Source: Crenalkalicoccus roseus (GTDB lineage Bacteria > Pseudomonadota > Alphaproteobacteria > Acetobacterales > Acetobacteraceae). Taken from it: 64,000 nucleotides of DNA. The position numbers were made by a program, and so were the translations under genes. Each line of letters opens with the position of its first letter. Position 1 is the first letter of the stretch. A model generated the notes under the pieces. The model ran no database searches. It saw only the letters and a list, made by a program, of their open reading frames with translations, and had not been told where the DNA came from. The DNA lies in NCBI RefSeq assembly GCF_004761865.1, contig NZ_SJDM01000008.1, positions 1 to 64,000 of the forward strand. The letters run 5' to 3'. This document shows, piece by piece, positions 27,349 through 48,213 of the stretch.

Positions 27349-28412
<1,064 letters not shown>

Positions 28413-28416
<4 letters not shown>

Positions 28417-29534: not shown

Positions 29535-30625
29535 GCGGAGGCGCCTTCCCGCCTGCGGACCGCCTCGGCGCGGAGCAGCGCATCCACCTGTGCGCCACGC
29601 CGCGCGTAGGTATGCTCTGCGAGAATCCGTGCCCGCGCCGCCGCACCGATGGAACGCGCCCGATCCGGGGCGAGGTCGCGCAGCAGTTCCGCGACCTCCC
29701 TCCCATCGCGCGCCACCAGCACCTCCTTGCCCTCCGCCAGGAACAGATCGAGCCCCTCCCAGACGTCGGTGATCAGGCAGGCACCGGCGCCCGCGGCCTC
29801 GAACACGCGCGTTGCCGGCGAGAAGCCGATCGCGGCCATGCTGTCGCGGGCGATGTTCAGGATGGCGATCGGCGTGACATTGAAGGCGTTGTGATCGCGC
29901 GTGTACACGTGGCCGAGATGCCGCACGTTTGCCGGCATCGCCTTCGTCTCCCAGCCATTGCCGCCTATCAGGAAGCGTCGCTCCGGAAGCGCGGCAGCGG
30001 CACGCAGGAAGAATTCCTCCACCCGAGCCTCACGGTCCGGCAAGCGGTTGCCGAGGAAGGAGAGATCAGCCGCGAAGCGCGGATCAGGCGGCACCGGATG
30101 ATGCGTCTCTGGGTCCAGCGCATTGTAGACCGGCACGCAGCGTCGTGCGCCAAGGCTCTCGTAGGCTTCCACCACCGGCGGTCCGCCACCATAGGTGAGC
30201 ACGAGATCAAGCGAGGGCAGCGCACGGCGAAGCGGATGGTCAGGTGCGGCACGCAGTTCGGCGAGGGTCGCCGGCGCGTCCACGTCCCAGAAGATGCGGA
30301 TCGCATCCGGACGGGCCGCCGCCATCACGCCCCGCAGCAGTGCGTCGTCGAAGACGCCGACACCGCTTGCCTTCACCACCACATCAGCCTGCGCCGCCTC
30401 GGCGGTCACGGCGCGGAGCCCGTCCTGGGTGGGCGGCCATACCTGCACTTCCGCCCAGCGGGGCGGCTCGATGTCGCGGTGCTGCTGGCGCCCGAAGGCA
30501 TCGGGTTCGTAGAAGGTGATGCGGTAGCCGCGCCTCGCGAGGTCATGGAGCATGCCACGGTAGTATGTGGCGGCGCCGTTCCAGTAGGAGGAAAGCAGGC
30601 TCGATCCGTAGAAAGCGATCCTCAT
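29531..30625 (-). CDS. CgeB-like glycosyltransferase (copy 2)
   Basis: A 364-residue relative of its neighbours. It opens RIAFYGSSLLSSYWNGAATYYRGMLHDLARRGY, shows FWDVDAPATL in the place of the neighbour's FYDIDTPVTL, and ends with DLSFLGNRLPDREARVEEFF, NVTPIAILNIARDSMAAIGFSPATRVFEAAGAGACLITDVWEG. The conserved Glu of GT-B enzymes is in RVFEAAG. Both ends share 4-base overlaps with the flanking genes. Probably cytosolic; substrate unknown. Confidence 0.8.
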   Translation of the reverse strand: MRIAFYGSSLLSSYWNGAATYYRGMLHDLARRGYRITFYEPDAFGRQQHRDIEPPRWAEVQVWPPTQDGLRAVTAEAAQADVVVKASGVGVFDDALLRGVMAAARPDAIRIFWDVDAPATLAELRAAPDHPLRRALPSLDLVLTYGGGPPVVEAYESLGARRCVPVYNALDPETHHPVPPDPRFAADLSFLGNRLPDREARVEEFFLRAAAALPERRFLIGGNGWETKAMPANVRHLGHVYTRDHNAFNVTPIAILNIARDSMAAIGFSPATRVFEAAGAGACLITDVWEGLDLFLAEGKEVLVARDGREVAELLRDLAPDRARSIGAAARARILAEHTYARRGAQVDALLRAEAVRRREGASA

Positions 30626-31737
30626 GCGGAAATCTCCGGAAGCGCCTCTGCCTTCCCAAGAAGCGCCAGAATGGCGAGAAGCTCCTCCGCCCGGTGATCG
30701 CAGCTGTGCCGGGCGGCGATGGTGGCGAGGCCATGCGCAACGAGGGCACGGCGCAACGCGCCATTGGCCTGTAATTCCCTAAGATGATGCGTCATTTCCG
30801 CTTGGTTGCGAGCCACCAGGAAATCCTCACCCGGGCGGAACAGGCCCTCCGTGTCCTCCCAAGGGGCACAGACCAGTGGAATGCCGCAGGCCAGCGCCTC
30901 GAAGACGCGGATGGTGGGGATGCCGGGCAGCGCCTGCGCATAGAAGCGGCGCGGCACATGCACGGTAGCGAGATGGCGCGCGAATACCTCTGGCACGCGC
31001 GCGTTGGGTAGCCAGCCGCGGTAGCGCGCACCATGCGCGCGCAGCGTCGCCAGCGCCGGCTCCGGGTAGCGCACGCCATGAACGTCGAGGGGCAGGGCAG
31101 CGGCCCTTGCCGGCCGCAGCAGGAATGCCTCCAGCTCGGCGCTGCGCTCCCCGTCGCCCCAATTGCCGATCCAGACCAAGCCTTCACGCCTGCTGTCCGG
31201 CGCCGGCGGGCGGAACAGCCGCGTGTCCGCGGCCTCGTGCCAGACGAAGACGCGTTGCCCCCATCCCTGGCGACGATACACCTCGGCCAGCGATCCTCCG
31301 AAGGCGAGGACACCGTCATAGCCGCTCAGGTCGAAGACGCGGATCGAGTCCGGGTCGCTTACCGCACGGTGATGCGTGTCGTGGAACAGCAGAATGAAGC
31401 GCCCGCCCTGGCGCCGCGCCCGCCCGAGGGCGGACACCAGCCATGGCTCGTTCCATTCGTGCACGATGACCGCGTCGGCACCTTCGATGGCGGCGCCGAT
31501 CGCGTCCTCGCCCGCATAGGCGTGGGAGGACAGTTCGGGATAAGCCTCCCGCCAGGCACGCAGCCCGGTCTCGCCATGATCCCGCAGGAGATTGGCGAGG
31601 CTCCAGCCGCCCTCCGGCTCCCAGGCCGCGACGGCATGGCCGCGTGCGATCAGGGCGCGCAGCACGCCGCGCAGGAAATGCGCATTGCCGTGATTCCAGC
31701 AAGAGGCCAGGGAGTGGGTGAAGTAGACGATCCTCAC
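30622..31737 (-). CDS. CgeB-like glycosyltransferase (copy 1)
   Basis: A 371-residue GT-B protein starting with GTG (VRIVYFTHSLASCWNHGNAHFLRGVLRALIARG), whose first bases overlap the upstream stop (GTGA). The C-terminal half has GLVWIGNWGDGERSAELEAFL, HVPRRFYAQALPGIPTIRVFEALACGIPLVCAPWEDTEGLF. It is more distant from the other two copies than they are from each other, by eye. Assigned to the CgeB family by the shared N-terminal pattern and C-terminal RVFEAL motif. Confidence 0.78.
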   Translation of the reverse strand: MRIVYFTHSLASCWNHGNAHFLRGVLRALIARGHAVAAWEPEGGWSLANLLRDHGETGLRAWREAYPELSSHAYAGEDAIGAAIEGADAVIVHEWNEPWLVSALGRARRQGGRFILLFHDTHHRAVSDPDSIRVFDLSGYDGVLAFGGSLAEVYRRQGWGQRVFVWHEAADTRLFRPPAPDSRREGLVWIGNWGDGERSAELEAFLLRPARAAALPLDVHGVRYPEPALATLRAHGARYRGWLPNARVPEVFARHLATVHVPRRFYAQALPGIPTIRVFEALACGIPLVCAPWEDTEGLFRPGEDFLVARNQAEMTHHLRELQANGALRRALVAHGLATIAARHSCDHRAEELLAILALLGKAEALPEISA

Positions 31738-32858
31738 GCCGCGCTCTTCCTTCCGCTGCCGCGTTCCGCGGCGGCCTGCAGCACCTGACGGTGGATCGCC
31801 AGAATGCCTTCCGCCATCGTCTCGGCGTCGTAGCGGGCGGCACGTTCCCGCGCTGCCCCGCACAGCCGCGCACGCAGGGCGCGGTCGCGCAGCGCCTCGG
31901 CGAGCGCGGCGGCAAGCGCCGCGTCGTCCCCGGGCGGAACGAACAGTGCCGCCCCATCCCACAGCTCCCGGAAGCTTGGAATGTCCGAAAGCACCAGGGC
32001 GCAGCCTGCCTGCGCCGCCTCGAGCACCGCGAGGCCGAAGGGCTCGTAACGGGCAGCGGAGACGAAGATGGGGCCGCGTGCCAGCCAACGCCGCACCTCC
32101 GCCTCGCCGAGCCGGCCCAGGGGCCGGACATGCCGGAGCGCCACGCGCGCCCCGTTCGGCCCCTCGACAGATCCGGCGGCGAGGACAGGAAAGGCCAGAC
32201 GCGCCGCCGCACGATCCAGGCCCATCAGGTTCTTGCCTTCATCCCACAGCCGCCCTGCGGTGAACACGAAGCTCGCCTGACGACTCGTGGCGGTCCGCGG
32301 GGGCTGGCGGCCATTGCGCACGACATGCGGCGCCTGTGGCAGGCCATAGGCTTCGGCGGTGGCGGCTGCGAAGGCGGCGGTGGGGGCGATCAGCGCATCC
32401 ACGGCGGCACAGCCGCGCGCGGTCAGCGCGATACGCCATCGGAATTCCGCCGGCGGCGGCCCGCCGCGAACGGCCTTCCACCAGGTCGCCAAGCAGGAAT
32501 GGCACACGCCGATCACGGGCACGCCGAACCGTTCCGCCGCTGCCAGAGCCGGGCTGCAGAGATGGACGATGTCGGCCCGCGATCCTGCGGCCATCTCGGC
32601 CAGCGCGTTGCCAGTGGTCTCCAGCGCCTCGGGTGTTTCCGCCGTCCATTCGAGCGGCAGGCCGGTCTCGATCATGCGCAGCTTTGGCACCGCGGCCGCC
32701 GCCTCCCGCTGATCCTCTGCGGGAGGCGGGCCAAGCACGGCAAGGACCGCATCGCCGCCGCGCTCCGCGATCCCACGCGCGAGATCAAGCGTGTAGGACC
32801 AGACGCCGCCGACCGCGTCGGCCACGAGCAGAACCCGCGAGGCAGGAGCCGCCATCAT
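31734..32858 (-). CDS. Glycosyltransferase family 4 protein
   Basis: A 374-residue GT-B enzyme. The acceptor-side N-terminus is VLLVADAVGGVWSYTLDLARGIAERGGD; the donor side shows FTAGRLWDEGKNLMGLDRAA and the EX7E-type segment ARYEPFGLAVLEAAQAGCALVLSDIPSFREL. The ATG chosen (MMAAP) overlaps the radical SAM stop by 4 bases; an alternative ATG lies 9 bases upstream. It would transfer a hexose-type sugar. Family length is normal. Confidence 0.87.
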   Translation of the reverse strand: MMAAPASRVLLVADAVGGVWSYTLDLARGIAERGGDAVLAVLGPPPAEDQREAAAAVPKLRMIETGLPLEWTAETPEALETTGNALAEMAAGSRADIVHLCSPALAAAERFGVPVIGVCHSCLATWWKAVRGGPPPAEFRWRIALTARGCAAVDALIAPTAAFAAATAEAYGLPQAPHVVRNGRQPPRTATSRQASFVFTAGRLWDEGKNLMGLDRAAARLAFPVLAAGSVEGPNGARVALRHVRPLGRLGEAEVRRWLARGPIFVSAARYEPFGLAVLEAAQAGCALVLSDIPSFRELWDGAALFVPPGDDAALAAALAEALRDRALRARLCGAARERAARYDAETMAEGILAIHRQVLQAAAERGSGRKSAA

Positions 32859-34144
32859 GCCGCGCATGACGTCTCCAGCGTGGCCAGGGGCAGCGGCCGC
32901 TGCTCCTGTATGTCGCTGAAGGCGTCGAACTGGGCGAGGTAGTGCGCATGCGCGCGCTCCCACGCCATGTCGTCGGGCGCTCCCCACAGGCGGTGGTAGT
33001 CGGGAGAGCTGGGATAGGGGTAAAGGGGAACGGGATCATTGGCCCAGACGCCGCCCCGCCGCAGCCGTTCCCGCCAGGCGGCGATCAGCGCCGGATCGTC
33101 GGTTCCCGTGCGGATGAGGTTCGCTTGCACGAAGGGCACGGAGCGCCGGGCATAGAGCAGCCGCTCCGCCAGATCGTCCGTGCTCATGCGGCAATTCTTG
33201 TCGAGCGCTGCCCGCCCCTCCTCGGTCAGGCTCTCCACACCCGCCTCGATCGAGACGCAGCCGGCCCGCCCGAGCAGGTCGAGCATTTCAGGCTTCCACA
33301 GGTCTATGCGTGTCTGGATGCCGAAGGAGAGGCCGCGCTCCGCCAATGCTTCCAGCAGGGGGCGCTGCGGCAGGAAGATTTCGTCTATGAAGTAGAGATA
33401 GCCGACCCCCTGCGCGCGGAGAGCGTCGATCTCTTCCAGCAGCGGTGGCAGGGCACGCCGGCGGTACCTGTCGCGGAAATCGATCTTGGCGCAGAAGGTG
33501 CAGCTATAGGGGCAGCCGCGCGACGCCTCCACCTCCGCGCCCGGCGCGTCCGGCTGCGCGTCGAAGCGATGATGGTGATGCCGGTGGCGCGCCACCCAGG
33601 CGTCCGGCCAGCGCAACGCCGGAAGGTCCACGAAGGCGCCGGCATGCGGAGCGCCGGTGACGCGAACCTCTTCGCCCTCTCTGTAGGCGATGGCGGGCAC
33701 CCGGGAAAGGTCCCCAGCCCCGGCCATCAGGGCTATGATCTCCTCACACTCGCCGCGCACCACCACATCCGCGTCGAGCTTGCGCAGGACCACACCCGGC
33801 GTCGCCGAGCCGTGCGGACCGACCGCCACGGAACGTCCGCCGCGCCCTCCGAGCGCGATGAGGAACTCGCGCGGCACGCGCAGTTCCGGCGGTGCGCAGC
33901 GCCAGAACAGGTAGCTCGGCGCGGTGGTGACCACGGTCATGTCCGGCGCGAACTCGGCCACCATCTCCGCGGCCGCGTCCATTGCGATGCCGCAGAGATG
34001 CGCGTCGAGCATCAGCACATGATGGCCGGCTGCCTCGAGAAGGGCGCGGGCATAGCCGAGCTCAAGCGGCAGATGAGACTCGCGGCAGCCGAAATAGATG
34101 CTGCCGTCGAAGCTCCAGGGCGGGTTGACCAGAGCGACCTTCAC
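32855..34144 (-). CDS. B12-binding-domain radical SAM protein of a glycan cluster
   Basis: A 429-residue protein with GTG start. Residues 1-140 form a cobalamin-binding Rossmann-like domain (VALVNPPWSFDG, then HHVLMLDAHLCG), although the full DxHxxG motif is not clear. The radical SAM cluster motif is Cys211-x3-Cys215-x2-Cys218 in SRGCPYSCTFCAK. A natural His-rich stretch (HRHHHHRFD, 187-195) precedes it. Similar proteins are named, as I recall, TIGR04295 'B12_rSAM_oligo, rhizo-twelve system'. Possible chemistries are sugar C-methylation, epimerisation or rearrangement; none is proven. Coupled to both neighbours by 4-base overlaps. Confidence 0.82.
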   Translation of the reverse strand: MKVALVNPPWSFDGSIYFGCRESHLPLELGYARALLEAAGHHVLMLDAHLCGIAMDAAAEMVAEFAPDMTVVTTAPSYLFWRCAPPELRVPREFLIALGGRGGRSVAVGPHGSATPGVVLRKLDADVVVRGECEEIIALMAGAGDLSRVPAIAYREGEEVRVTGAPHAGAFVDLPALRWPDAWVARHRHHHHRFDAQPDAPGAEVEASRGCPYSCTFCAKIDFRDRYRRRALPPLLEEIDALRAQGVGYLYFIDEIFLPQRPLLEALAERGLSFGIQTRIDLWKPEMLDLLGRAGCVSIEAGVESLTEEGRAALDKNCRMSTDDLAERLLYARRSVPFVQANLIRTGTDDPALIAAWRERLRRGGVWANDPVPLYPYPSSPDYHRLWGAPDDMAWERAHAHYLAQFDAFSDIQEQRPLPLATLETSCAA

Positions 34145-35205
34145 GGCAGGGCCTCGGTAAGGGAGCGGTGATCGCGCTCCTCCTGCAGCCATCTGGCAAG
34201 GATCGCGATACCGCTTCTCCAGGAGGTGGGTGTGGCGAGCCCAAGCGCCTGATGCGCGCGGCGGGTATCCGAGACGTACCAGCGCTGGTCTCCGGCACGC
34301 CACGGCGCATGGCGAACCTCTGGCCTTCGCCCCGCGAGTTCGCCGATCAGCCCGATCACCTGGCGCAGGCTCACAGCGTTAGACGGCCCGCCGCCGAGGT
34401 TGAAGGCGCGACCGGAAACGGCCCCGATGCACCGCCAGGCAGCCAGATAGGCATCCACCACATCGTCCACCAGCATGACATCGCGCACCTGGCAGCCATC
34501 GCCGAATACGGTGATAGGCTCGCCGCGCAGGGCGCGGATCAGGAAATGCGCCACCCAGCCCTGATCCTCGGTTCCCATTTGCCGCGGGCCGTAGATGCAG
34601 CTCATCCGGAACACGACGCCGGGAATGTCGAAGCTGCGTGTCCAGTCCAGCACGTACTGGTCCGCCGCGCCCTTGGAACAGCCATAGGGCGTGTGGAAGT
34701 CGAGCGGCCGCTCCTCAGGCACGCCGAAGGCGCGCAGCATCCCATCCTGGGGCGCATAGGCATCCCCTTGCAGAACCAGCGCCATGTCCCCCAGGCTGCC
34801 GTAGACCTTGTTGGTGCTGGCAAAGATCACCGGCACCGCTCCGCCTCTCCTGCGCAGCGCCTCGAGGAGCAGCACCGTCCCCTTCAGGTTCACCTGGAAG
34901 TCCGCATACGGGTCGAGCAAGCTGGTCGTGACCGCCACCTGGGCGGCGAGATGGAAGACCGCTTGCGCATCAGCCGCCGCTTCCGCCAGCGCGGCCTCGT
35001 CGCGCACATCGGCGATCATGGCGGAGATGCGGCGAGGGTGGCGCTGCCGCAGCCATTCCAGGTTGGCCTCCACACCCGTCCGCGCCAGAGCGTCGTAGAC
35101 GAGCACGTCATGACCTTCCGTCGCCAGGCGATCGGCGAGGTTGGCGCCGATGAAGCCGGCGCCACCGGTCACCAGAACCGGCCGCCGGTCCAGGATCGCC
35201 GTCAC
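34141..35205 (-). CDS. NAD-dependent epimerase, CDP-paratose 2-epimerase-like SDR
   Basis: A 354-residue extended SDR. NAD motif GGAGFIGANL is at residues 14-23; the active site includes FASTNKVYG and Tyr174/Lys178 in HTPYGCSKGAADQY. RMSCIYGPRQMGTEDQGWVAHF is highly characteristic of the CDP-paratose (tyvelose) 2-epimerase group. It probably epimerises a nucleotide sugar for the glycan made by this operon; whether the substrate is a CDP sugar is inference. Its ATG overlaps the upstream epimerase stop. Confidence 0.82.
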   Translation of the reverse strand: MTAILDRRPVLVTGGAGFIGANLADRLATEGHDVLVYDALARTGVEANLEWLRQRHPRRISAMIADVRDEAALAEAAADAQAVFHLAAQVAVTTSLLDPYADFQVNLKGTVLLLEALRRRGGAVPVIFASTNKVYGSLGDMALVLQGDAYAPQDGMLRAFGVPEERPLDFHTPYGCSKGAADQYVLDWTRSFDIPGVVFRMSCIYGPRQMGTEDQGWVAHFLIRALRGEPITVFGDGCQVRDVMLVDDVVDAYLAAWRCIGAVSGRAFNLGGGPSNAVSLRQVIGLIGELAGRRPEVRHAPWRAGDQRWYVSDTRRAHQALGLATPTSWRSGIAILARWLQEERDHRSLTEALP

Positions 35206-36317
35206 GCCACCAACCCTCTCGCCTCAAGCTCCCGCCGCGCCTGCTGCACACGGTCCTCCGCCTGCTGGCGCCTCACCCATTCCGCGAGTTCCGCGAGGCC
35301 CTCCGCAAAGACGCGACGCGGCGCGTAGCCCAGAACCTGCTGCGCCAGGGAGATGTCGGCGATGCAGTGGCGGATGTCGCCGGCGCGGGCGCGGCCCGTG
35401 ATCTCGGGCCGGATGTCCGCGCAGTCCATGGCTGCCGCGAGCAGCGCGGCGACGTCGCGCACCGTGCGGTCCTCGCCGCTGCCGATGTTGAAGACGCCGC
35501 CCGCGGCGCGTGGTCGTTCGAGGGCAAGGGCGAAGGCCTCCGCGACATCCTCGACATGCACGAAATCCCGGCGCTGCAGGCCATCCTCGAAGATCATCGG
35601 CGGCTGCCGGTTGTGCAGGCGGGCGGCGAAGATCGCCAGCACGCCGGTGTAGGGGTTCGACAGCGCCTGGCCGGGGCCGTAGACGTTCCAGAGGCGCAGC
35701 GCGACACCCTCCATCCCATAGGCGGGGGCGAGGGTCAGCGTCAGCCGCTCCTGCACGTATTTGGTGATGGCGTACACTGACGCGAGCGCCGGCCGCTTGT
35801 CCTCGGGTGTCGGCACCGGCCGCAGCGGCCTGCCCTTCGCATCCAGCGGGTCCCAGGACATGTCAGGACCCGTGCGCGGCTTGCGTACAGCATGGTCCAC
35901 CACGAGACCTTCGGGGTCGAGATAGCGCCCTTCGCCGTAGATGCTCATGGAGGATGCGACGACAACCCGCCGCACCGGATGCTTGATCAGCGCCTCGAAC
36001 AGCACCGCCGTACCGCGGTCGTTCGCGTCCACATAGCGGTCCACGGCATACATGCTCTGCCCGACGCCGACCTCGGCAGCGAGGTGCACCACCACATCGG
36101 TGCCGGCCACCGCACGACGCACCGCATCGGGATCCCGCACGTCCCCAAGCAGGAACTCCGCCTCGGGGTCGAGACCTGGCGCCGTCCCATTCTCCCCATG
36201 CACCTGCTCGATCAGGCTGTCGAGCACCCGCACATGATGCCCACGGCGCAGCAGGGCACGCGTGAGATGCTGCCCGATGAAGCCCGCGCCTCCGGTGATC
36301 AGGATCCTGTCTGACAC
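35202..36317 (-). CDS. NAD-dependent epimerase, dTDP-L-rhamnose 4-epimerase-like SDR
   Basis: A 371-residue extended SDR with GTG start preceded by GGAGG. NAD motif is GGAGFIGQHL (9-18); catalytic Tyr182/Lys186 are in VYAITKYVQERL, with ASSMSIYGEG upstream. LWNVYGPGQALSNPYTGVLAIFAARL and FEDGLQRRDFVHVEDVAEAF closely resemble dTDP-L-rhamnose 4-epimerases, which give 6-deoxy-L-talose. It is the first gene of the eight-gene leftward operon, and its upstream region faces the inositol-phosphate synthase gene. Confidence 0.85.
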   Translation of the reverse strand: MSDRILITGGAGFIGQHLTRALLRRGHHVRVLDSLIEQVHGENGTAPGLDPEAEFLLGDVRDPDAVRRAVAGTDVVVHLAAEVGVGQSMYAVDRYVDANDRGTAVLFEALIKHPVRRVVVASSMSIYGEGRYLDPEGLVVDHAVRKPRTGPDMSWDPLDAKGRPLRPVPTPEDKRPALASVYAITKYVQERLTLTLAPAYGMEGVALRLWNVYGPGQALSNPYTGVLAIFAARLHNRQPPMIFEDGLQRRDFVHVEDVAEAFALALERPRAAGGVFNIGSGEDRTVRDVAALLAAAMDCADIRPEITGRARAGDIRHCIADISLAQQVLGYAPRRVFAEGLAELAEWVRRQQAEDRVQQARRELEARGLVA

Positions 36318-36685
36318 CCTTGCCTCCGAATGTCCCCACCCGGACGGGCGGGACCTGCCCACAGCCGGCCTGCGGCAATCCGACAACGTGTCGCCAGCGG
36401 CGGCAACAGCGGGTCTGCTCCAGCCGTAACACCAGTTGGCGGCAAAGCGCGCAGGAGGCGCGTATCACCCTTGCGTGCGCTTGATCAAAGCGCCCAGAAT
36501 GTCGGGAAGCGCACATAAGTGCCTCGGTGAATGAGCTTCGGGGAGCCCGCCGCCAGCGTCACATTCCGTTGTCTCTGCGGCGACAGGCATCGGCCAGCGC
36601 GGCCATCGCGTGCTACTCGCATTGCTCACGGGCAGCATGGCCGGACGGCGCCTTGTGCGCCGCACACAAGGATGGAGGCGCCGCC
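36318..36685. promoter_or_regulatory. Divergent control region of the twelve-gene glycan/inositol cluster
   Basis: This 368-base gap separates the two divergent operons and must carry both promoters. No convincing protein-coding gene is visible in it. It is lower in GC than its surroundings, especially around 36420-36530. An inverted repeat GCGCTT-N5-AAGCGC lies at 36477-36493. Part of the segment can be read in frame with the inositol-phosphate synthase, but that reading is Cys/Ala/Arg-rich and unlike the family. Confidence 0.5.
36477..36493. promoter_or_regulatory. Operator-like inverted repeat
   Basis: GCGCTT and AAGCGC arms flank GATCA in the middle of the divergent promoter region. Size and placement would suit a small dimeric repressor, but no regulator gene is nearby. 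Confidence 0.3.
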
Positions 36686-37765
36686 TTGGGCTTGGGATCG
36701 CTGCGTGTCGGCCTGGTCGGCATCGGGAATTGCGCGTCCTCCTTCGTCCAGGGGCTGGTCCATTATCGTGCGGCCAAGGCCAACGAGCCGGTGCCCGGCC
36801 TGATGAATGCCGAGATCGGCGGCTACCACGTGTCCGACATTCTCCTGTCGTCCGCCTTCGACGTGCATGCCGGAAAAGTCGGACGCGATCTTTCCGAGGC
36901 GATCCTGGTTCCGCCCAATAACACCGTTTCCTTCGCGCCGGTCCCGCCGAGCGGCATCGTGGTGCGGCGCGGCCCGACCCTTGACGGGCTCGGGCGCTAC
37001 ATGGCCGGCGAGATCGAGGAGTCGAAGGAGCCGCCTGTGGATGTCGCTGGCGTGCTGCGCGAGACTCGCACCGAAATCCTTGTCTCCTATCTTCCGGTGG
37101 GTGCGCAGCGCGCGAGCGAGTGGTATGCCGAACAGGCCCTGGAGGCCGGTTGTGCCTTCGTGAACTGCATTCCGGTCTTCATCGCCTCCGACCGCACCTG
37201 GCGGCGGCGCTTCGAGGAGCGGGGCCTGCCCCTCATCGGCGACGACATCAAGAGCCAGGTGGGCGCCACGATCGTGCATCGCGCGCTGGCCACCCTGTTC
37301 CGGGAGCGCGGCGTGCGGCTGGACCGGACCTACCAGCTCAATTTCGGCGGCAACGCCGACTTCAAGAACATGCTGGAACGGGAGCGCCTGGAGAGCAAGA
37401 AGATCTCCAAGACCCGCGCCGTGACCAGCCAGCTCGGCATGGAGCCCGCGCCGGAAGACGTGCATGTCGGCCCCAGCGATTTCGTGCCCTGGCTGACCGA
37501 CCGCAAATGGGCCTACATCCGCATGGAGGGCACCGGCTTCGGCGGCATGCCGCTCAATCTGGAGCTGAAGCTCGAAGTCTGGGACAGCCCGAACTCCGCC
37601 GGGGTGGTGGTGGATGCGGTACGCTGCGCCAAGCTGGCGCTGGACCGGCGCATCGGCGGCGCTCTGATCGGACCCTGCAGCTACTTCATGAAGTCGCCTC
37701 CCCAGCAATTCACGGATCAGGAGGCCCGGGAGCGCACGCTGCGCTTCATCGCCGGCGACGCCTAG
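36686..37765 (+). CDS. Inositol-3-phosphate (myo-inositol-1-phosphate) synthase family protein
   Basis: A 359-residue NAD-dependent cyclase family member resembling actinobacterial Ino1. Motifs: [18 protein letters not shown] (NAD fold), [36 protein letters not shown] (catalytic Lys region), and [12 protein letters not shown]. Start is a TTG at 36686, supported by GGAGG 7 bases before it and by homology; there is no in-frame ATG close by. The product, inositol phosphate made from glucose-6-phosphate, would feed the glycan or an inositol-containing molecule. First gene of the rightward four-gene operon. Confidence 0.87.
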
Positions 37766-37776
37766 GGCGGGGCGGC

Positions 37777-38376
37777 ATGGCCACCGTGGTGTTCCTGGTG
37801 CGGCACGCCGCGCATGGGCTGGTGCGCAGCGTGCTGTGCGGCCGCATGGAAGGCGTGCATCTCAGCGAGGAAGGGCGGCTCCAGGCGGCGGCGCTGGCGC
37901 GGCGGCTGGCGCGGGAGTGCCCCGACGCGCTCTGCACCGGGCCGTTGCCGCGTGCCCGCGAGACGGCGGAGGCTATCGCCCGCGCCACCGGCCTTGTGCC
38001 CGTGGTGGAAGCGGCGCTGGACGAGATGGATTTCGGCACCTGGTCCGGGCAGAGCTTCGTCGCGCTGGAAGCGGATCCCGAATGGCGCCTCTGGAACGAG
38101 GCGCGTGCATCCTCCCGTCCGCCCGGCGGCGAGTCCATGGCCGAGGCGCAGCGGAGGATCCTGTCCTGGCTGGAGGCGCGGCGGAAGCGGCAGCCGGAAG
38201 GCAGGGTGGTCGCCGTCACCCATGCCGAGGTGATCAAGGCGGCGCTCGCGGGGGTGCTGGGCCTGTCGCTCGACGCCCATGCGCGCTTCGACATCGCCCC
38301 CGCGGGGCTGAGCGCCATCGCCCTGTGGGAAGGAGGCGGCAAGGTGCTCTGGATGAACGAGGTGGCCCCGACATGA
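37777..38376 (+). CDS. Histidine phosphatase family protein
   Basis: A 199-residue phosphoglycerate-mutase-like phosphatase. The catalytic motif is LVRHAAHG (RHG variant RHA), the proton donor Glu is in ALDEMDFGTWSG, and the second His is in VVAVTHAEVIKAAL. The ATG comes 11 bases after the synthase stop. Coupling to an inositol-phosphate synthase suggests it could dephosphorylate inositol phosphate or a sugar phosphate; this is inference. Its stop overlaps the methyltransferase start (ATGA). Confidence 0.85.
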   Translation: MATVVFLVRHAAHGLVRSVLCGRMEGVHLSEEGRLQAAALARRLARECPDALCTGPLPRARETAEAIARATGLVPVVEAALDEMDFGTWSGQSFVALEADPEWRLWNEARASSRPPGGESMAEAQRRILSWLEARRKRQPEGRVVAVTHAEVIKAALAGVLGLSLDAHARFDIAPAGLSAIALWEGGGKVLWMNEVAPT

Positions 38377-39146
38377 TACCGACGCGCAAGCCCCTTGACG
38401 TCGAGGAGATCCGCCGGCGCGTGGAGGCGCTTGGTCCCTGGTTCCACAATCTCGACCTCGGCGGCGTGCGCACCGCGCCCGGGCACTTCCTCTACGACTA
38501 TCCCGAGCAGAAATGGCGCCGCTTCGCCCACGCCCTACCCGCCGACCTCTCCGGCCGCAGCGTGCTCGACATCGGCTGCAACGCCGGCTTCCACGCCATG
38601 GAGATGAAGCGGCGCGGCGCGGCCCGCGTGCTCGGCATCGACAGCGACGAGCGCTACCTGGCCCAGGCGCGCTTCGCGGCGGAGGTGAATGGCCTCGACA
38701 TCGAATTCCGACCGCTCTCCGTCTACGACGTCGGCTCGCTCGGGGAGCGTTTCGACATCGTGCTGCTGATGGGCGTTCTCTACCATCTGCGCCACCCGCT
38801 GCTGGCGCTGGATCTGGTGCATGAGCACGTGGCGCGGGACCTCCTGGTGTTCCAGTGCATGCAGCGCGGCTCCCCGCGCTGCGAGGCGCTGGAGGAGGAT
38901 TACGACTTCTACGAGACCTGGCCGTTCGAGCTGCCGGGCTTCCCGCGCCTGCACTTCATCGAACGGCGCTACGCCGGCGATCCCACGAACTGGTGGGTGC
39001 CGAACCGTGCCTGCTCCGCGGCCATGCTGCGCAGCGCCGGCTTCGAGATCCTCGATCATCCCGAGGAGGAGGTGTTCATCTGCCGGCGCGTCGCGGCCCC
39101 GTCCGGCGCCGGTGCCGTCTATCCGGCCAGGGGAAGCGCGGCATGA
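38373..39146 (+). CDS. SAM-dependent methyltransferase (TIGR04290-type)
   Basis: A 257-residue class I methyltransferase. The SAM-binding motif is SVLDIGCNAGFHAMEM (residues 63-78), followed by VLGIDSDERYL and VLLMGVLYHLRHPL. Residues 5-45 (RKPLDVEEIRRRVEALGPWFHNLDLGGV) are typical of a family I recall as TIGR04290 (Rta_06860). The family occurs in the same kind of cluster. It may O-methylate the sugar or inositol product. Overlaps both neighbours by 4 bases. Confidence 0.85.
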   Translation: MIPTRKPLDVEEIRRRVEALGPWFHNLDLGGVRTAPGHFLYDYPEQKWRRFAHALPADLSGRSVLDIGCNAGFHAMEMKRRGAARVLGIDSDERYLAQARFAAEVNGLDIEFRPLSVYDVGSLGERFDIVLLMGVLYHLRHPLLALDLVHEHVARDLLVFQCMQRGSPRCEALEEDYDFYETWPFELPGFPRLHFIERRYAGDPTNWWVPNRACSAAMLRSAGFEILDHPEEEVFICRRVAAPSGAGAVYPARGSAA

Positions 39147-40027
39147 TCGAAGCGGCGATGATCTGGAACGAACCCAACAACAAGTCGCACTGGGATCCCG
39201 AGATAGATCCCGACTGGTCCATGTTCGCCGAGATGGCGAAATGCGCCGCGGATGCCATCGCCGCCGAGCGTCCCGGCCTGCCGCGCGTGCTCGGCGGCAT
39301 CTCTCCGATCGACCCCATGTTCATCCGCAACATGGCGGACCGCGGCGTGCTCGACCGGGTGGACGCGGTCGCGGTGCACGGTTTCCCGCTCGACTGGAAT
39401 CTCTGGCAGATCCACGAATGGCCGGCCAAGATCGAGGAGATCCGCGCCGTCACCCCGCTTCCGGTCTGGGTATCGGAGGTCGGCGTCTCCTCCTTCGGCG
39501 CCGAGGAGGTGCAGGCCTGGGGGCTGCAGCGCACCGCCGAGCTGCTGAGCGGCCGCGCGCCGCGCATCCACTGGTACAGCCTCTACGACCTGCCGCGCGC
39601 CTGGGAGGCGACGACCCGGCACAAGGAGGCCGAGGGCTCCTCCTACTACCGTCACTTCTACATGGGCCTCCTGCGCGAGGACGGAACGCCGAAGCCGGCG
39701 CTCGAACTGTTCGGCCGTCACGCACCCGAATTCGGCCTCTGCCAGTGGTTTCACTTCGAGGACCACCGGCTGCACGATGCCGTCGCCTGGATGCGTCGGC
39801 TCGGCGTGCGGCATCTGCGCACCGGGCTGTCCTGGGCCGACAGCTTCCGCCCGAACGCGCTCGGCTGGTTCGACCGGCAGATGGAGGCGCTGGCCGAATT
39901 CCAGGTTACCGTCACCTTCTGCTTCACGCCCGAGCATCGCGGCCTGGCCCCGCACCATACCAGCCCGCCGATCGTGAAGGAGGAGTTCGCGGAGTTCTGC
40001 GCCGCCATGGTGCGGCGCTACGCCTGA
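39143..40027 (+). CDS. Glycosidase-like 'beta-xylosidase' protein, apparently a circularly permuted TIM barrel
   Basis: A 294-residue protein related to clan GH-A (GH39-like) enzymes. It begins straight at the acid/base motif WNEPNNKSHW (Glu10), normally about 150 residues into such enzymes, and continues through LGGISP, AVAVHGFP and the second catalytic site VWVSEVGVSS (Glu112). After strand beta8 (IHWYSLYD) the chain from about residue 195 (GLCQWFHFED, LGVRHLRTGLSWADSF, VTVTFCFTPEHRG, EFAEFCAAMVRRYA) looks like the beta1-beta3 half of the barrel, ending just where the NEP strand would follow. So the order is beta4-8 then beta1-3. The ATG overlaps the methyltransferase stop, so no N-terminal half is missing upstream. 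Confidence 0.8.
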   Translation: MIEAAMIWNEPNNKSHWDPEIDPDWSMFAEMAKCAADAIAAERPGLPRVLGGISPIDPMFIRNMADRGVLDRVDAVAVHGFPLDWNLWQIHEWPAKIEEIRAVTPLPVWVSEVGVSSFGAEEVQAWGLQRTAELLSGRAPRIHWYSLYDLPRAWEATTRHKEAEGSSYYRHFYMGLLREDGTPKPALELFGRHAPEFGLCQWFHFEDHRLHDAVAWMRRLGVRHLRTGLSWADSFRPNALGWFDRQMEALAEFQVTVTFCFTPEHRGLAPHHTSPPIVKEEFAEFCAAMVRRYA

Positions 40028-43831: not shown

Positions 43832-45043
43832 CTATGCCGCCCCGGCCAGATCCTCGCCGAGGCCGCGCGCCACCTCGGCGAAGGCGGTGCAGACCTGGTC
43901 GAGCTGCTCCTCGGTGTGCGCCGCGCTGACGCTGCAGCGGAGGAGGTGGACGCCGGCCGGCGTCGCGGGCGGCATCGCCAGGTTGACATACACCCCTGCC
44001 CGCAGCAGCGCGCCCCAGAAGGTGAGCAGCCGCTCCAGCCCCTCCACGCGCAGGGCAATCACCGGCCCGGGCGGGGCGATGGAGCGCAGCCCGAGCGCGG
44101 CGAGGCCGCGGTGCAGCCGCTCGATGTTGCGCCAGAGGCGGGCGCGGAGGTCGTCGCCCGCCTCGATCCGCTCCAGCGCCGCCTGCGCCGCCGCCACCAC
44201 GGCGGGGGGGAGCGAGGCGGTGAACATGTAGGGCCGGCTGACCATGCGCAGCAGCTCGAGCCGCGGATCGTCGGAGACGCAGAAGCCGCCCACCGTGCCG
44301 ACGCTCTTGCTGAAGGTGCCGACGATCAGGTCCACCTCGCGCCCGACGCCCGACTCCTCCGCCACCCCGCGGCCCTTGGGGCCGAACACGCCGAAGCTGT
44401 GCGCCTCGTCCACGATCAGCGCCGCGCCATGGCGGCGCTTCACCTCCACCAGCTCGCCGATCGGCGCGCGGTCGCCGAGCATGCTGTAGATGCCCTCCAC
44501 AACCACCAGCACGTTGCCGCCGCCGCTGCGGTCGAGCCGGCCGAGCCGGCGGTCGAGGTCGGCCGGGTCGTTGTGGCGGAAGCGGATGACGGTGGCGCCG
44601 CTGAGGCGGCAGCCATCGTAGATGCAGGCGTGGCTGTCGGCGTCGATCAGCACCGTGTCCTTCGGCCCGGCCAGCGCCGAGAGCACGCCGAGATTGGCCT
44701 GGTAGCCGGTGGTGAAGAGCAGCGCCGCCCTGCGGTCGTAGAGCCGCGCCAGGGTGCGCTCGACGGCGCGGTGGCCGGCATAGGTGCCGTTCGCCACGCG
44801 CGAGCCGGTGGAGCCGGTCCCCTGGCGTTCCAGCGCCTCGCGCGCCGCGGCGATGCAGCCGGGATCGAAGCTGAGGCCGAGGTAGTTGTTGGTGCCGACC
44901 AGGATGGTCCGCCGTCCGTCGATCACCGCCTCGGTGGCCGAGGGCGTCTCCTCCATGCAGACGCCGAGCGGGTTGACGCCGAGCCGCTGCAGCAGCGCCC
45001 GCCCCTCCTCGAGCGCCGCGAAGCGGGCGAACAGGTCAGCCAT
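43832..45043 (-). CDS. spt: Serine palmitoyltransferase (alpha-oxoamine synthase family)
   Basis: A 403-residue PLP enzyme that condenses serine with an activated fatty acid to 3-ketosphinganine. The Schiff-base Lys246 is in GTFSKSVGTVGGF, PLP-contact residues Asp212 and His215 are in LIVDEAHSFGVFG, and His138 is in DSHACIYDG. The family also includes glycine C-acetyltransferase and 8-amino-7-oxononanoate synthase; an Spt role is preferred because an ACP gene, a fatty acyl ligase, a bCerS-like gene and an SDR surround it. Overlaps the ACP gene by 8 bases. Confidence 0.85.
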   Translation of the reverse strand: MADLFARFAALEEGRALLQRLGVNPLGVCMEETPSATEAVIDGRRTILVGTNNYLGLSFDPGCIAAAREALERQGTGSTGSRVANGTYAGHRAVERTLARLYDRRAALLFTTGYQANLGVLSALAGPKDTVLIDADSHACIYDGCRLSGATVIRFRHNDPADLDRRLGRLDRSGGGNVLVVVEGIYSMLGDRAPIGELVEVKRRHGAALIVDEAHSFGVFGPKGRGVAEESGVGREVDLIVGTFSKSVGTVGGFCVSDDPRLELLRMVSRPYMFTASLPPAVVAAAQAALERIEAGDDLRARLWRNIERLHRGLAALGLRSIAPPGPVIALRVEGLERLLTFWGALLRAGVYVNLAMPPATPAGVHLLRCSVSAAHTEEQLDQVCTAFAEVARGLGEDLAGAA

Positions 45044-45302
45044 GGACCGTGTCCCGCCGCAGCGCCGCCACCATCCGCGCGAAATCCCCGACCGTGCGCA
45101 CCTCGGGCAGCGCGTTGAGCGGCACGGAGACGTCGAAGCGGTCCTCCGCCTCGGCCACCAGCTCCATCACTGTGACGCTGTCGAGCCCGAGGTCGTCCAC
45201 GAAATCCGTCCCGGCGTCCAGGGCGACCTGGTGCCTGTTGTAGCGCTGCAGCAGCGCGCAGACCTCCGGCAGCAATTCCGACGCGGCGTCGCGATCGCTC
45301 AT
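45036..45302 (-). CDS. Acyl carrier protein of the sphingolipid locus
   Basis: An 88-residue ACP. The 4'-phosphopantetheine Ser42 sits in DLGLDSVTVMELVAEAEDRF, and the rest forms the acidic four-helix bundle. It probably carries the fatty acyl chain used by the serine palmitoyltransferase, like AcpR in Caulobacter. The start at MSDRDAAS is favoured by AAGGGGACCGGAG upstream; an alternative ATG at 45353 overlaps the stop of the ligase gene (ATGA) and would add 17 residues. Confidence 0.87.
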   Translation of the reverse strand: MSDRDAASELLPEVCALLQRYNRHQVALDAGTDFVDDLGLDSVTVMELVAEAEDRFDVSVPLNALPEVRTVGDFARMVAALRRDTVHG

Positions 45303-45349
45303 CTCCGGTCCCCTTCTGGTGTGCGTGTTCGCGGCGGCACCGCGCGCGG

Positions 45350-47137
45350 TCATGCCCCGGCGCGCGGCTGCCCGGCCTGCCCCTGGTAGAGACCGGCCAG
45401 GTAGTTGGCGCGCGCCCGCGTCCGGCTAAGCTTGCCGGAGGAGGTGCGCGGCAGGCTGCGCGGCGGCACGGGTACCACCTCGCACTCGACCCCGCAGGCG
45501 CGCAGCACCGCCTGGCGCGCCGCGGCGACGAGCGCCTGCCGCTCGGCGGGGTCCTGGCTGCGGCACTGCACCAGCAGCACCGGCCGCTCGCCCTCCGCCC
45601 CCTCCACCGCGAAGGCGGCGCAGTCCTGGGCGCGCAGCCCCGGCAGGCGCTCCACCGCCCATTCCAGGTCCTGCGGCCAGATGTTGCGGCCGTTGACGAT
45701 GATGCTGTCCTTGGCGCGGCCGATCACCACCAGCTCCTCCCCCGCCCAGTAGCCGCGGTCGCCGGTGTCCAGCCACCCGTCGGGGCCGAGGACGCGGGCG
45801 GTCGCCGCGTCGTCGCCGAAATAGCCGGTCATGACGCTCGGGCCGCGCACCATGATCCGCCCGACCCGCCGCTCGCCCAGCACCCGGCCCGCCTCGTCCT
45901 GGATCGTCACCTCGCAGCCCTGGACCGGGCGGCCGCAGCGCACCAGGGCGCGTCCCCCTTCCACGACCGGCAGGGCGCGCCCCTCCTCGGCCAGGGCCTG
46001 GCGCTCCACCCGGTCGAGCGCCAGCCCCTCGCCCAGGGGGGCGATGCTGACGGCGAGCGTCGCCTCGGCCAGGCCGTAGCAGGGCAGCATGGCGCGCGGC
46101 CGGAAGCCCGCGGGCGCGAAGGTCTCGGTGAAGGCGGCGATGGCCTCAGGCCGGATCATCTCCCCCCCGATGCCCGCCACGCGCCAGTGCGAGAGGTCGA
46201 GCTCGGCCACCAGCTCTCGCGTGGCGCGGCGGCTGCACAGCTCGTAGCCGAAGCAGGGGGCGGAGGAGATGGTGGCGCGGTTGCGCGCGATGAGGCGCAG
46301 CCAAGTGGCGGGGCGACGGGCGAAATCCTCGCTCGCCATCAGGTCCACCGAGCGCTGGCAGGAAAGGCCGCCGAGCAGGATGCCGACCAGGCCCATGTCG
46401 TGGTGCAGCGGCAGCCAGCTCGCGATCCGGTCGTCCTCGCGCAGCCGGAGAGCGTGGGCGATGGCGTGGCAATTCGCCATCAGCGCCTGCTGTGTCACCG
46501 CGACGCCGGTGGGGAAGCGCGTGCTGCCGGAGGAATACTGCAGATAGCAGAGCTCCCCGGGCCCGAGCGGCGCGCCGGGCGGCGCGGCCGGCCGCTCCAG
46601 CAGCGCCGTCCAGCTCTCCCAGGGGATTTCCCCCTCCTCTCCGCCGCGCCACGCGCGGGCCAGGGATGCGGGGAGGATCACTCGCCGCGCCCCGCACTGG
46701 GCAAGCTGGCGCCGGATCTGGTCGAGATGTGCCGCGCGGTCGCTGAAGGCGCCGGGGCCCGGCAGGGGCACCGGCACCAGCCCGGCATACTGGCAGGCCA
46801 TGAAGGCGGCGACGAAATCGGGCGAGGCGGCGGCGATCAGCCCGATGCGGTCGCCGCGGGCAAGGCCGAAACCAGCGAGGCGCGCGGCGCCGGCCAGCGC
46901 GCGGCGGCGCAGCTCCGCATAGGTCAGCACCGCCTCGAGACGCCCCGCCGCGCCGTAGAAATTCAGGCCGCTCGCTCCGCGCGCCGCGTAATCCAACGCC
47001 TCCGCCAGGCAGCCGAAGCCGGCGGGGCGGAGGGGCAGCGCCGACCAGGTCGGGGTGGAAGCGGCGATGGTGACCGGGGCGCCGCTTCCGCGTGGCAGGG
47101 GCAGGATGTCGGGCGAGGCGGTGTCCAGGGCTGTCAC
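45350..47137 (-). CDS. Fatty acyl-AMP ligase / acyl-ACP synthetase
   Basis: A 595-residue adenylate-forming enzyme of the FAAL type. Signature regions: LCYLQYSSGSTRFPTGVAVTQ (P-loop), WLPLHHDMGLVGILLG, LPCYGLAEATLAVS, LDTGDRGYWAGEELVVIGRAKDSIIVNGRNIWPQDLE, and the catalytic-Lys region TSSGKLSRTRARANY. It would adenylate a fatty acid and load it on the neighbouring ACP for Spt, as AasR does in Caulobacter. GTG start overlaps the glycosyltransferase stop (GTGA). Confidence 0.88.
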   Translation of the reverse strand: MTALDTASPDILPLPRGSGAPVTIAASTPTWSALPLRPAGFGCLAEALDYAARGASGLNFYGAAGRLEAVLTYAELRRRALAGAARLAGFGLARGDRIGLIAAASPDFVAAFMACQYAGLVPVPLPGPGAFSDRAAHLDQIRRQLAQCGARRVILPASLARAWRGGEEGEIPWESWTALLERPAAPPGAPLGPGELCYLQYSSGSTRFPTGVAVTQQALMANCHAIAHALRLREDDRIASWLPLHHDMGLVGILLGGLSCQRSVDLMASEDFARRPATWLRLIARNRATISSAPCFGYELCSRRATRELVAELDLSHWRVAGIGGEMIRPEAIAAFTETFAPAGFRPRAMLPCYGLAEATLAVSIAPLGEGLALDRVERQALAEEGRALPVVEGGRALVRCGRPVQGCEVTIQDEAGRVLGERRVGRIMVRGPSVMTGYFGDDAATARVLGPDGWLDTGDRGYWAGEELVVIGRAKDSIIVNGRNIWPQDLEWAVERLPGLRAQDCAAFAVEGAEGERPVLLVQCRSQDPAERQALVAAARQAVLRACGVECEVVPVPPRSLPRTSSGKLSRTRARANYLAGLYQGQAGQPRAGA

Positions 47138-48213
47138 GATGTCGGCATCTCCGTCCGCAGGGGGTGCCCGGGCCAGGCTCCGGCCTCGCCGGCGCCGGGC
47201 AGCCCGGCCTTGCGGCCGGCGACCTGCTCCAGCAACCCCGACAGGCGCTCGGCGCAGTGCTCCCAGCGCCAGCCCAGGGCGAATTCGCGGCAGCGGGCCG
47301 GATCGATGGCCAGCGCCGCGCGCGCGGCGCGGCCGAGATCCTCGTCGAGCACGCCGACGCCGCTGTCGCCGATGATGTCCTTGGGGCCGGTCACCGGATA
47401 GGCCGCGACCGGCAGGCCCGAGGCCAGGGCCTCCAGCACCACCAGCCCGAATGTATCGGTGCGCGAGGGAAAGACGAAGACGTCCGCGGCCGCGTAGTGG
47501 CGCGCCAGCTCCTCGCCCCGCTTGAGCCCGACGAAGCGGACCTCCGGGTGGCGGCGGCGCAGCGCCGGCAGCAGCGGCCCGTCGCCGACGACAAGCTTGC
47601 TGCCAGGCAGGTCCAGCTCCAGGAAGTCCTCGATGCTCTTCTCCACGGCGATGCGACCGACATAGAGGAACACCGGCCGCGGAAGATCGAGCCAATCCTT
47701 CGCGCCGGGCCGGAACAATTGCGTGTCCACCCCGCGCGACCAGCGCACCACCCTGGCGAAGCCGCGCCGGTGCAACTCGTCGCAGAGCGAGGGGGTGGCG
47801 GCCAGCACGGCGCGGGAGGGGCGGTGGAACCAGCGCATCGCCCCCCAGGTCCAGGCGGCGGGGATGCGCAGGCGCAGCTCCACCGCCTCGGGGAATTTGG
47901 TGGTGAGGAAGCTCACGAAGGGCACGCCCTGGCGCAGGCACCAGGCCCGGCCGGCGAGGCCGAGCGGCCCCTCGGTTGCCAGTACCACCACCTCCGGCGC
48001 CAGGGCCGCCATGTGGCGCGCGAGACGGCGGCCGGGCAGCAGGGCGAGGCGGATACCGGGGTCGGTCGGGCAGGGCAGGGTGCGGAACATGTCAGGCTCG
48101 ATCATGTTCACCCGGTGGCCGAGGCGCTGCAAACCCTGGCGCACCATGCCAAGCGTGCGGCTGACGCCATTCGCTGGCGGATCGCAGGCATCGGAGACGA
48201 TGACGATGTGCAT
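47134..48213 (-). CDS. Glycosyltransferase family 4 protein, possibly ceramide glycosyltransferase
   Basis: A 359-residue GT-B enzyme. The N-terminus is HIVIVSDACDPPANGVSRTLGMV; the donor domain has FLYVGRIAVEKSIEDFLEL, VVGDGPLLPALRRRHP and FPSRTDTFGLVVLEALASGLPVAAYPVTG. These features match mannosyl- or glucosyl-transferases acting on lipids. It is the first gene of the ligase/ACP/spt unit and is coupled to the ligase. A role in adding a sugar to ceramide or diacylglycerol is inference. The upstream SD is weak. Confidence 0.83.
   Translation of the reverse strand: MHIVIVSDACDPPANGVSRTLGMVRQGLQRLGHRVNMIEPDMFRTLPCPTDPGIRLALLPGRRLARHMAALAPEVVVLATEGPLGLAGRAWCLRQGVPFVSFLTTKFPEAVELRLRIPAAWTWGAMRWFHRPSRAVLAATPSLCDELHRRGFARVVRWSRGVDTQLFRPGAKDWLDLPRPVFLYVGRIAVEKSIEDFLELDLPGSKLVVGDGPLLPALRRRHPEVRFVGLKRGEELARHYAAADVFVFPSRTDTFGLVVLEALASGLPVAAYPVTGPKDIIGDSGVGVLDEDLGRAARAALAIDPARCREFALGWRWEHCAERLSGLLEQVAGRKAGLPGAGEAGAWPGHPLRTEMPTS

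Follow-up and report, generated by a model that had tools for sequence, protein, structure and literature searches.

A predicted circular permutant of a clan GH-A glycosidase barrel in an alphaproteobacterial glycan gene cluster, and its epimerase-fused relatives of ordinary strand order

The locus and its gene cluster

The window, a stretch of 64,000 nucleotides from Crenalkalicoccus roseus that was analysed at its full length, carries at 27349-40027 a widespread alphaproteobacterial cluster of TIGR04290, TIGR04295, inositol phosphate synthase, SDR and glycosyltransferase genes. The gene at its end encodes a protein of 294 residues, whose sequence corresponds to a glycoside hydrolase (GH) barrel in circularly permuted strand order; homologues with the strands in ordinary order are called canonical below. 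In the following list, neighbour counts among the 80 permuted loci refer to the stretch retrieved around each gene, which is short for some loci.

27349-28428, minus strand: SDR3 (PF01370/PF16363), whose counterpart in Bradyrhizobium sp. 195 is annotated as a UDP-glucuronic acid decarboxylase family protein
28413-29534, minus strand: glycosyltransferase GT1 (PF13524)
29531-30625, minus strand: glycosyltransferase GT2 (PF13524)
30622-31731, minus strand: glycosyltransferase GT3 (PF13524)
31734-32873, minus strand: glycosyltransferase GT4 (PF13439 and PF00534)
32855-34141, minus strand: TIGR04295 family B12-binding radical SAM protein (728.7 bits, cut-off 400)
34141-35205, minus strand: SDR1, orthologous to the SDR portion of the canonical GH-SDR fusion, here without a GH domain
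35202-36386, minus strand: SDR2, NAD-dependent epimerase/dehydratase type (NCBIfam SDR matches under equivalog cut-offs); in 8 of 9 canonical loci the gene immediately preceding the GH-SDR1 fusion is a homologue of SDR2
36527-37765, plus strand: inositol-3-phosphate synthase homologue, given as the longest ORF, the true start being perhaps further in (PF01658, E 1e-36; TIGR03450, 514.8 bits, below the cut-off of 638; within the retrieved stretch in 72 of 80 permuted loci)
37777-38376, plus strand: histidine phosphatase family protein (PF00300, E 9.3e-46; within the retrieved stretch in 66 of 80 permuted loci)
38373-39146, plus strand: TIGR04290 family methyltransferase, its stop overlapping the GH start (372.8 bits, cut-off 300; within the retrieved stretch in 72 of 80 permuted loci)
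39143-40027, plus strand: circularly permuted protein of 294 aa with a predicted GH-A (GH39/PslG-like) barrel fold (ORF, rotation scan, PDB sequence search in native and rotated order, AlphaFold2, hhalign)
39143-39724, plus strand: residues 1-194, corresponding to beta4 to alpha8 of the ordinary barrel, here N-terminal (match to the 3' part of the canonical domains in 9/9 loci; predicted secondary structure)
39725-40024, plus strand: residues 195-294, corresponding to beta1 to alpha3 of the ordinary barrel, here C-terminal (match to the 5' part of the canonical domains in 9/9 loci; predicted secondary structure)
39170-39172, plus strand: codon of Glu10, candidate acid/base residue in the NEP motif that ends beta4; it pairs with the NEP Glu in the PslG alignment and is invariant in 101/101 orthologues
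39476-39478, plus strand: codon of Glu112, nucleophile candidate (beta7), within model strand 108-113 and invariant in 101/101 orthologues

Members of TIGR04290 and TIGR04295, both above cut-off, thus lie near the permuted gene, and the same gene cluster surrounds the permuted and the canonical forms. In canonical genomes the usual order is SDR2 - (GH-SDR1) - radical SAM - GT4 - GT3 - GT2 - GT1, with the exceptions of L144, L193 and L194, which have no radical SAM gene at that place, and of L141, which is differently ordered. In Bradyrhizobium sp. 195 (L275, NZ_CP082162, 11237-14147), the permuted gene stands between the TIGR04290 gene and a gene annotated as phosphopentomutase, followed in the same direction by two SDR genes, the TIGR04295 gene and four glycosyltransferase genes; a second permuted copy is present on another plasmid, NZ_CP082163. 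The open literature yielded no paper on TIGR04290, TIGR04295 or the gene combination of the cluster, subscription papers and preprints being outside the scope of that search. Elsewhere in the window, an alpha-oxoamine-synthase-like gene, a small acyl-carrier-like ORF and an AMP-ligase-like gene are found in a row on the minus strand (43832-47941); we take them to resemble bacterial sphingolipid (serine palmitoyltransferase) genes.

The ATG of the permuted gene overlaps the TGA of the methyltransferase gene, and a preliminary description of this DNA had taken the 4-base overlap to exclude a missing N-terminus. As an argument, the overlap is weaker than stated there, because residue 2 is Ile (ATC) and the codons ATG ATC (Met-Ile) yield ATGA without any overlap; counts of ATGA were therefore dropped as evidence of gene overlap. 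The start itself is nonetheless genuine, as indicated by an in-frame stop 0-7 codons upstream of it in five orthologues (L064, L089, L093, L036 and L041) and by Sinorhizobium meliloti pSymB, where this N-terminus is preceded by a histidine phosphatase gene and a gap of 71 bases.

Strand order and predicted fold

Whole-protein searches of NCBIfam, PDB and Pfam in native order gave at most weak partial matches, as expected for a permutant. NCBIfam contained no family match to the protein in this order, and Pfam returned PF11790 (Glyco_hydro_cc) alone, under its cut-off of 21 bits (16.9 native, 18.5 rotated). Neither Pfam (native and rotated) nor NCBIfam (native) gave a GH70 or GH13 match with an E value of 10 or less, although HMMER filters may drop very weak ones. 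In the PDB, the sole match of the native sequence was PslG, aligned as two swapped pieces (query 3-186 on 132-321 and 201-232 on 26-57, E 0.14), and a native-order profile matched PslG over residues 3-185 with E 1.5e-5. Rotation at residue 195 produced a single PslG alignment (8-286 on 27-321, E 1.9e-6) crossing the artificial joint. PslG is the best sequence match among solved structures.

The canonical relatives exhibit the same two segments in the opposite order. In all nine canonical loci compared by tblastn (L136-L144, from nine genomes), query residues from about 187-197 to 294 matched upstream of residues from about 3-7 to 184-199; the two segments share a reading frame and are separated by 9 to 21 bases. 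When all 294 rotations were aligned globally (BLOSUM62) with the nine canonical domains, the optimum start fell at residue 194-197 in 9/9 cases, with a mean score of 361 rotated (range 307-394) vs 81 native; shuffled controls (20 shuffles per domain, each 7th rotation) reached a maximum of 9. The rotation point of 195 guessed in the preliminary description equals the optimum averaged over the nine homologues. An hhalign comparison with a profile of 16 canonical domains covered 179 columns unrotated (E 1.4e-34) and 280 columns rotated (E 4.2e-51). Rotated alignment, which had been proposed as a check against GH39, thus gave an end-to-end match to both PslG and the canonical relatives, and the segments that had been read as beta1-beta3 lie within residues 197-294, in the C-terminal part that is homologous to canonical beta1-beta3 in 9/9 loci. 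It is virtually certain, in our view, that the product of 39143-40027 is a circularly permuted form of the GH39/PslG-like barrel of clan GH-A, which runs from beta4 to alpha8 and then from beta1 to alpha3 and is predicted to close a single barrel.

The fold was modelled with AlphaFold2 from a shallow alignment of 57 rows (the window protein and 56 of the best 80 loci, 78-86% identical to the query). The model (pLDDT 86.5, pTM 0.87) forms one complete barrel in permuted order, with eight strands (2-10, 48-53, 75-80, 108-113, 142-145, 197-200, 224-230 and 254-260), helices between them along the whole chain and a last helix at 279-293, as in the (beta/alpha)8 barrels of GH-A and GH39. The predicted order is beta4-alpha4 ... 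beta8-alpha8-beta1-alpha1-beta2-alpha2-beta3-alpha3, and not the ordinary one that the preliminary description had named as evidence against its reading. Confidence is low at residues 11-20, 81-90 and 151-170. With VIA-align, the whole chain matched TIM barrels with Z up to 13.1 (240 residues, rmsd 3.8 angstrom), which argues that the C-terminal 100 residues belong to the single predicted barrel and do not form the separate domain that had also been considered. Among the 50 matches listed by each of Foldseek and VIA-align there were TIM barrels of diverse function but not a single GH39 chain; sequential aligners cannot place permuted chains in proper register. These matches support a barrel and are of no use for family assignment.

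The scan of genomes revealed at least 583 related stretches. The best 80 of these all match at least residues 2-286 (80/80); the genera represented include Roseomonas, Methylobacterium, Microvirga, Bradyrhizobium, Mesorhizobium, Ensifer and Inquilinus. Within the genome of C. roseus, a single match to the protein was obtained. For comparison, 101 distinct permuted proteins were used after five identical ones (L026, L048, L062, L075 and L098) had been dropped, later loci such as L184-L192 being outside this count. They share the segment order and, at 294-344 residues, also the length apart from a variable C-terminal tail, which bears out the expectation that orthologues would be built alike. 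Across the set, 98 of the 294 positions are invariant. Glu10 and Glu112 are among the residues conserved in 101/101 proteins; NEP occupies residues 9-11, Glu10 lies in predicted strand 2-10 and Glu112 in predicted strand 108-113, corresponding to the GH-A arrangement of catalytic Glu residues at the ends of beta4 and beta7. The original observation that the protein opens at an acid/base motif and carries its second Glu on beta7 is thereby sustained.

When rotated, the protein resembles a characterised GH39 enzyme across the catalytic domain, as the PslG alignment demonstrates. It departs from GH39 in lacking the ordinary strand order beta1 to beta8 and in matching no curated family model above cut-off. 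Homology and active site place the permuted protein among the GH-A barrels, whereas strand order and curated models do not.

Ordinary-order relatives fused to SDR1 and their distribution

The ordinary-order homologues occur in the same biosynthetic cluster, where they are fused to an SDR epimerase (SDR1). The distribution of permuted and fused forms was determined in several genome samples, which overlap one another. Among 100 sampled relatives, 16 had a match (12 permuted, 4 canonical only), compared with 14 of 385 in the class sample (8 permuted, 6 canonical only) and 18 of 299 in the phylum sample (9 permuted, 1 canonical and 8 weak GH39-like). The family of G405 gave 24 matches in 59 genomes (23 permuted, 1 canonical only) and its order 39 in 82 (37 permuted, five of them with a fused remnant, and 2 canonical only), while the family of C. 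roseus itself gave 39 in 200 (32 permuted, two of them with a remnant, and 7 canonical only). The two forms are complementary in the genomes examined.

The fused domains differ in their active sites according to the company they keep. The fused domain was read in 24 genomes. All 16 of these with the fused form only retain WNEPNN and the second Glu. In the eight genomes with both forms, the seven fused domains readable at NEP have all lost it and six of the seven have also lost the second Glu, which is retained in G728; in the eighth genome, G263, the contig start cuts off the NEP region and the second Glu is retained. The seven dead fused domains fall in two genera, and so perhaps reflect two events. 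At the level of single loci, L153/L154 (G405), L156 (G048) and L200-L204 encode an SDR1 whose N-terminal GH-like domain has one or both catalytic sites destroyed, alongside a permuted gene, and can be described as carrying a pseudo-enzyme domain.

A search for SDR1 in 26 permuted genomes identified a clear orthologue in 25, of which 22 have no GH domain. SDR1 trees were built with 15 of the 16 intact rows (G318, a near copy of G091, was left out) and 40 chosen GH-less rows. In the tree of 63 rows, the starred branches imply five or more switches between SDR1 with and without a GH domain, and a single clade of all rows without an intact fused domain was rejected with p-AU 1e-41 (47 rows vs 16, the unread G263 being counted among the 16). 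Four independent pairs all pointed in the same direction with p 0.125, a comparison that is partly circular as the GH-less rows were drawn from permuted genomes, and that falls short of significance because four pairs are too few.

A less biased comparison took the radical SAM gene as its starting point. In all, 39 distinct genomes were above the TIGR04295 cut-off (14 of 385 in the class sample and 26 of 200 in the family sample, G000 being in both), and 38 of the 39 have a GH form. The exception, G129, has the radical SAM gene and no GH was found there; its assembly is 82% complete, with a contig starting inside SDR1. Conversely, a GH form without a radical SAM gene above cut-off is present in G383 of the class sample and in 13 genomes of the family sample.

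A tree of the GH domains was calculated from 37 of the 101 permuted proteins, 16 canonical domains and three outgroup sequences, with the dead domains left out. The outgroup falls inside the permuted group, and 6% of bootstraps contain a branch that separates the permuted group from all other sequences. Because the outgroup branches are very long, this tree cannot root the permuted group, and with the outgroup placed inside that group it does not establish a single origin of the permutation. The three outgroup proteins, L150 (G607), L151 (G469) and L152 (G335), are ordinary-order GH39-like weak matches with N-terminal stretches that resemble signal peptides by eye.

On plasmids, 97 records matched at 60-90% identity and 50 at less than 60%. 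When 60 rows were sampled down the ranking, 39 belonged to the upper group, and the 15 annotated ones among these are named 'beta-xylosidase' (11), 'glycosyl hydrolase' (2) or 'hypothetical protein' (2). The other 21 rows belonged to the lower group, with 13 annotated, 12 by epimerase names and one as an unrelated archaeal protein. The S. meliloti pSymB gene, which is annotated as beta-xylosidase, is a permuted form; records of Rhizobium etli and R. phaseoli have 33-35% matches within epimerase genes, known from the match alone and not from segment order.

Genomes with the permuted gene either lack the fused domain or carry one that has lost catalytic residues, and the permuted gene has probably replaced the fused domain more than once; the two are presumably equivalent in function. 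It is likely that a natural GH-A permutation has repeatedly displaced the ordinary form of the same enzyme within one pathway, in such a way that the stand-alone permuted gene arrives, the SDR1-fused domain loses its active site and then vanishes, with the genomes that carry both forms representing living intermediates.

Likely role and comparison with known systems

By analogy to Glu165 and Glu276 of PslG, Glu10 would be the acid/base and Glu112 the nucleophile. No signal peptide is evident by eye, and the permuted protein is presumably cytosolic. From its conserved active site and its cluster, it is most likely a cytosolic retaining glycosidase or transglycosylase with a putative part in oligosaccharide assembly. 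The chain opens at beta4 with Glu10 and passes beta7 with Glu112 to alpha8, after which beta1-alpha3 are predicted to close the same barrel. Its substrate may be an intermediate, perhaps a glycosyl-inositol, of an oligosaccharide on which the glycosyltransferases, the SDRs, the methyltransferase, the inositol phosphate synthase and the B12 radical SAM enzyme of the cluster would work together, and the reaction would be trimming or transfer of sugar. As a stand-alone gene, it would take over the job of the non-permuted domain fused to SDR1. The permutation may stem from duplication, fusion and trimming, as proposed for GH70 in a passage of PMC4919382; no tandem-duplicate intermediate was seen in the loci examined. 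The full explanation, combining a permuted barrel, a putative activity on the cluster oligosaccharide and replacement of the fused domain, is one that we hold with good confidence.

A location in a biosynthetic cluster without an evident signal peptide, the lack of any family model above cut-off and the retention of SDR1-fused relatives in seven genomes despite lost catalytic residues would also suit a permuted barrel that serves as a binding or scaffold protein or acts on a non-glycosidic bond. We consider this unlikely, given the invariance of both Glu residues in the 101 orthologues and the loss of NEP in 7/7 fused domains beside a permuted gene vs 0/16 without one (23 readable); that NEP is lost only beside the permuted gene suggests that the catalytic residues matter. 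Far less probable is an arrangement in which the same permuted sequence closes its barrel between subunits, with beta1-alpha3 of one chain completing the barrel of its neighbour. A single-chain prediction is compatible with such an exchange of C-terminal segments, and model confidence is lowest at residues 155-166, which connect beta8 to alpha8, but AlphaFold2 closes the barrel within one chain at the pTM given above, and confidence is good along the approach to beta1 (mean pLDDT 86, 94 and 91 for residues 171-180, 181-190 and 191-200). An artefact, either a truncated ordinary GH39 gene without beta1-beta3 joined to an unrelated C-terminal domain or a misassembly, might be suspected from a protein that begins exactly at beta4, but is refuted by the ordinary-order homologues, to whose beta1-beta3 the C-terminal 100 residues are 26-33% identical in 9/9 loci, by the identical architecture of 101 distinct orthologues and by codon positions 1 and 2 varying far less than position 3 (6-16% vs 29-43% differences from the window gene) in 7/7 orthologues compared.

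Ordinary, permuted and decayed ordinary versions of this barrel occur in the same cluster of related bacteria, which makes the effects of permutation on folding, activity and coupling to partners directly testable. If true, the displacement would be a natural experiment on the gains and losses of a permuted barrel and on the release of an enzyme from a fusion. In addition, the permuted gene points to a glycan cluster that is widespread in alphaproteobacteria and whose barrel enzyme frequently bears the name 'beta-xylosidase' in public records.

Permuted GH barrels are already known in clan GH-H (GH70 and MalS). A permuted glycosidase of clan GH-A, or a natural circular permutation of a TIM barrel in GH-A, was not found among the open papers listed, with subscription papers and preprints outside the scope; those that treat circular permutation deal mostly with alpha-glucan enzymes, and one with carbohydrate-binding modules. 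One of the closest known systems is the GH-SDR1 fusion, for example that of Tistrella mobilis (NC_017957, annotated as NAD-dependent epimerase/dehydratase), which has a homologous barrel (26-37% identity by segment), shares the motifs WNEPNN, HGFP and W-x-[TS]-E-x-G and lies in the same gene cluster. However, its strands are in ordinary order and it is an N-terminal domain fused to SDR1, whereas the permuted form is a stand-alone gene. PslG of Pseudomonas aeruginosa (GH39, clan GH-A, PDB 4zn2/5bx9), the best match of solved structure, is likewise linked to a polysaccharide, the exopolysaccharide Psl, and differs in its ordinary order and longer chain (416 residues); its acid/base and nucleophile are described as Glu165 and Glu276 in a passage of PMC11912335. 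MalS (GH13 subfamily 19), presented in PMC10223318 as a glycoside hydrolase with circularly permuted domains, resembles the present case in that respect and differs from it as a periplasmic alpha-amylase of GH13. In GH70, the natural permutation of the glycosidase barrel runs alpha3-beta4...alpha8-beta1...beta3, according to passages of PMC4919382 and PMC11299179, and the barrels of GH70 glucansucrases and GtfB-type enzymes, as described there, are cut at nearly the same place as that of the permuted GH-A protein. These enzymes belong to clan GH-H, are extracellular and multidomain, and their permutation involves further core domains; in contrast to this setting in a large multidomain enzyme, the entire protein of 294 residues described here is a single, bare permuted barrel, as predicted.
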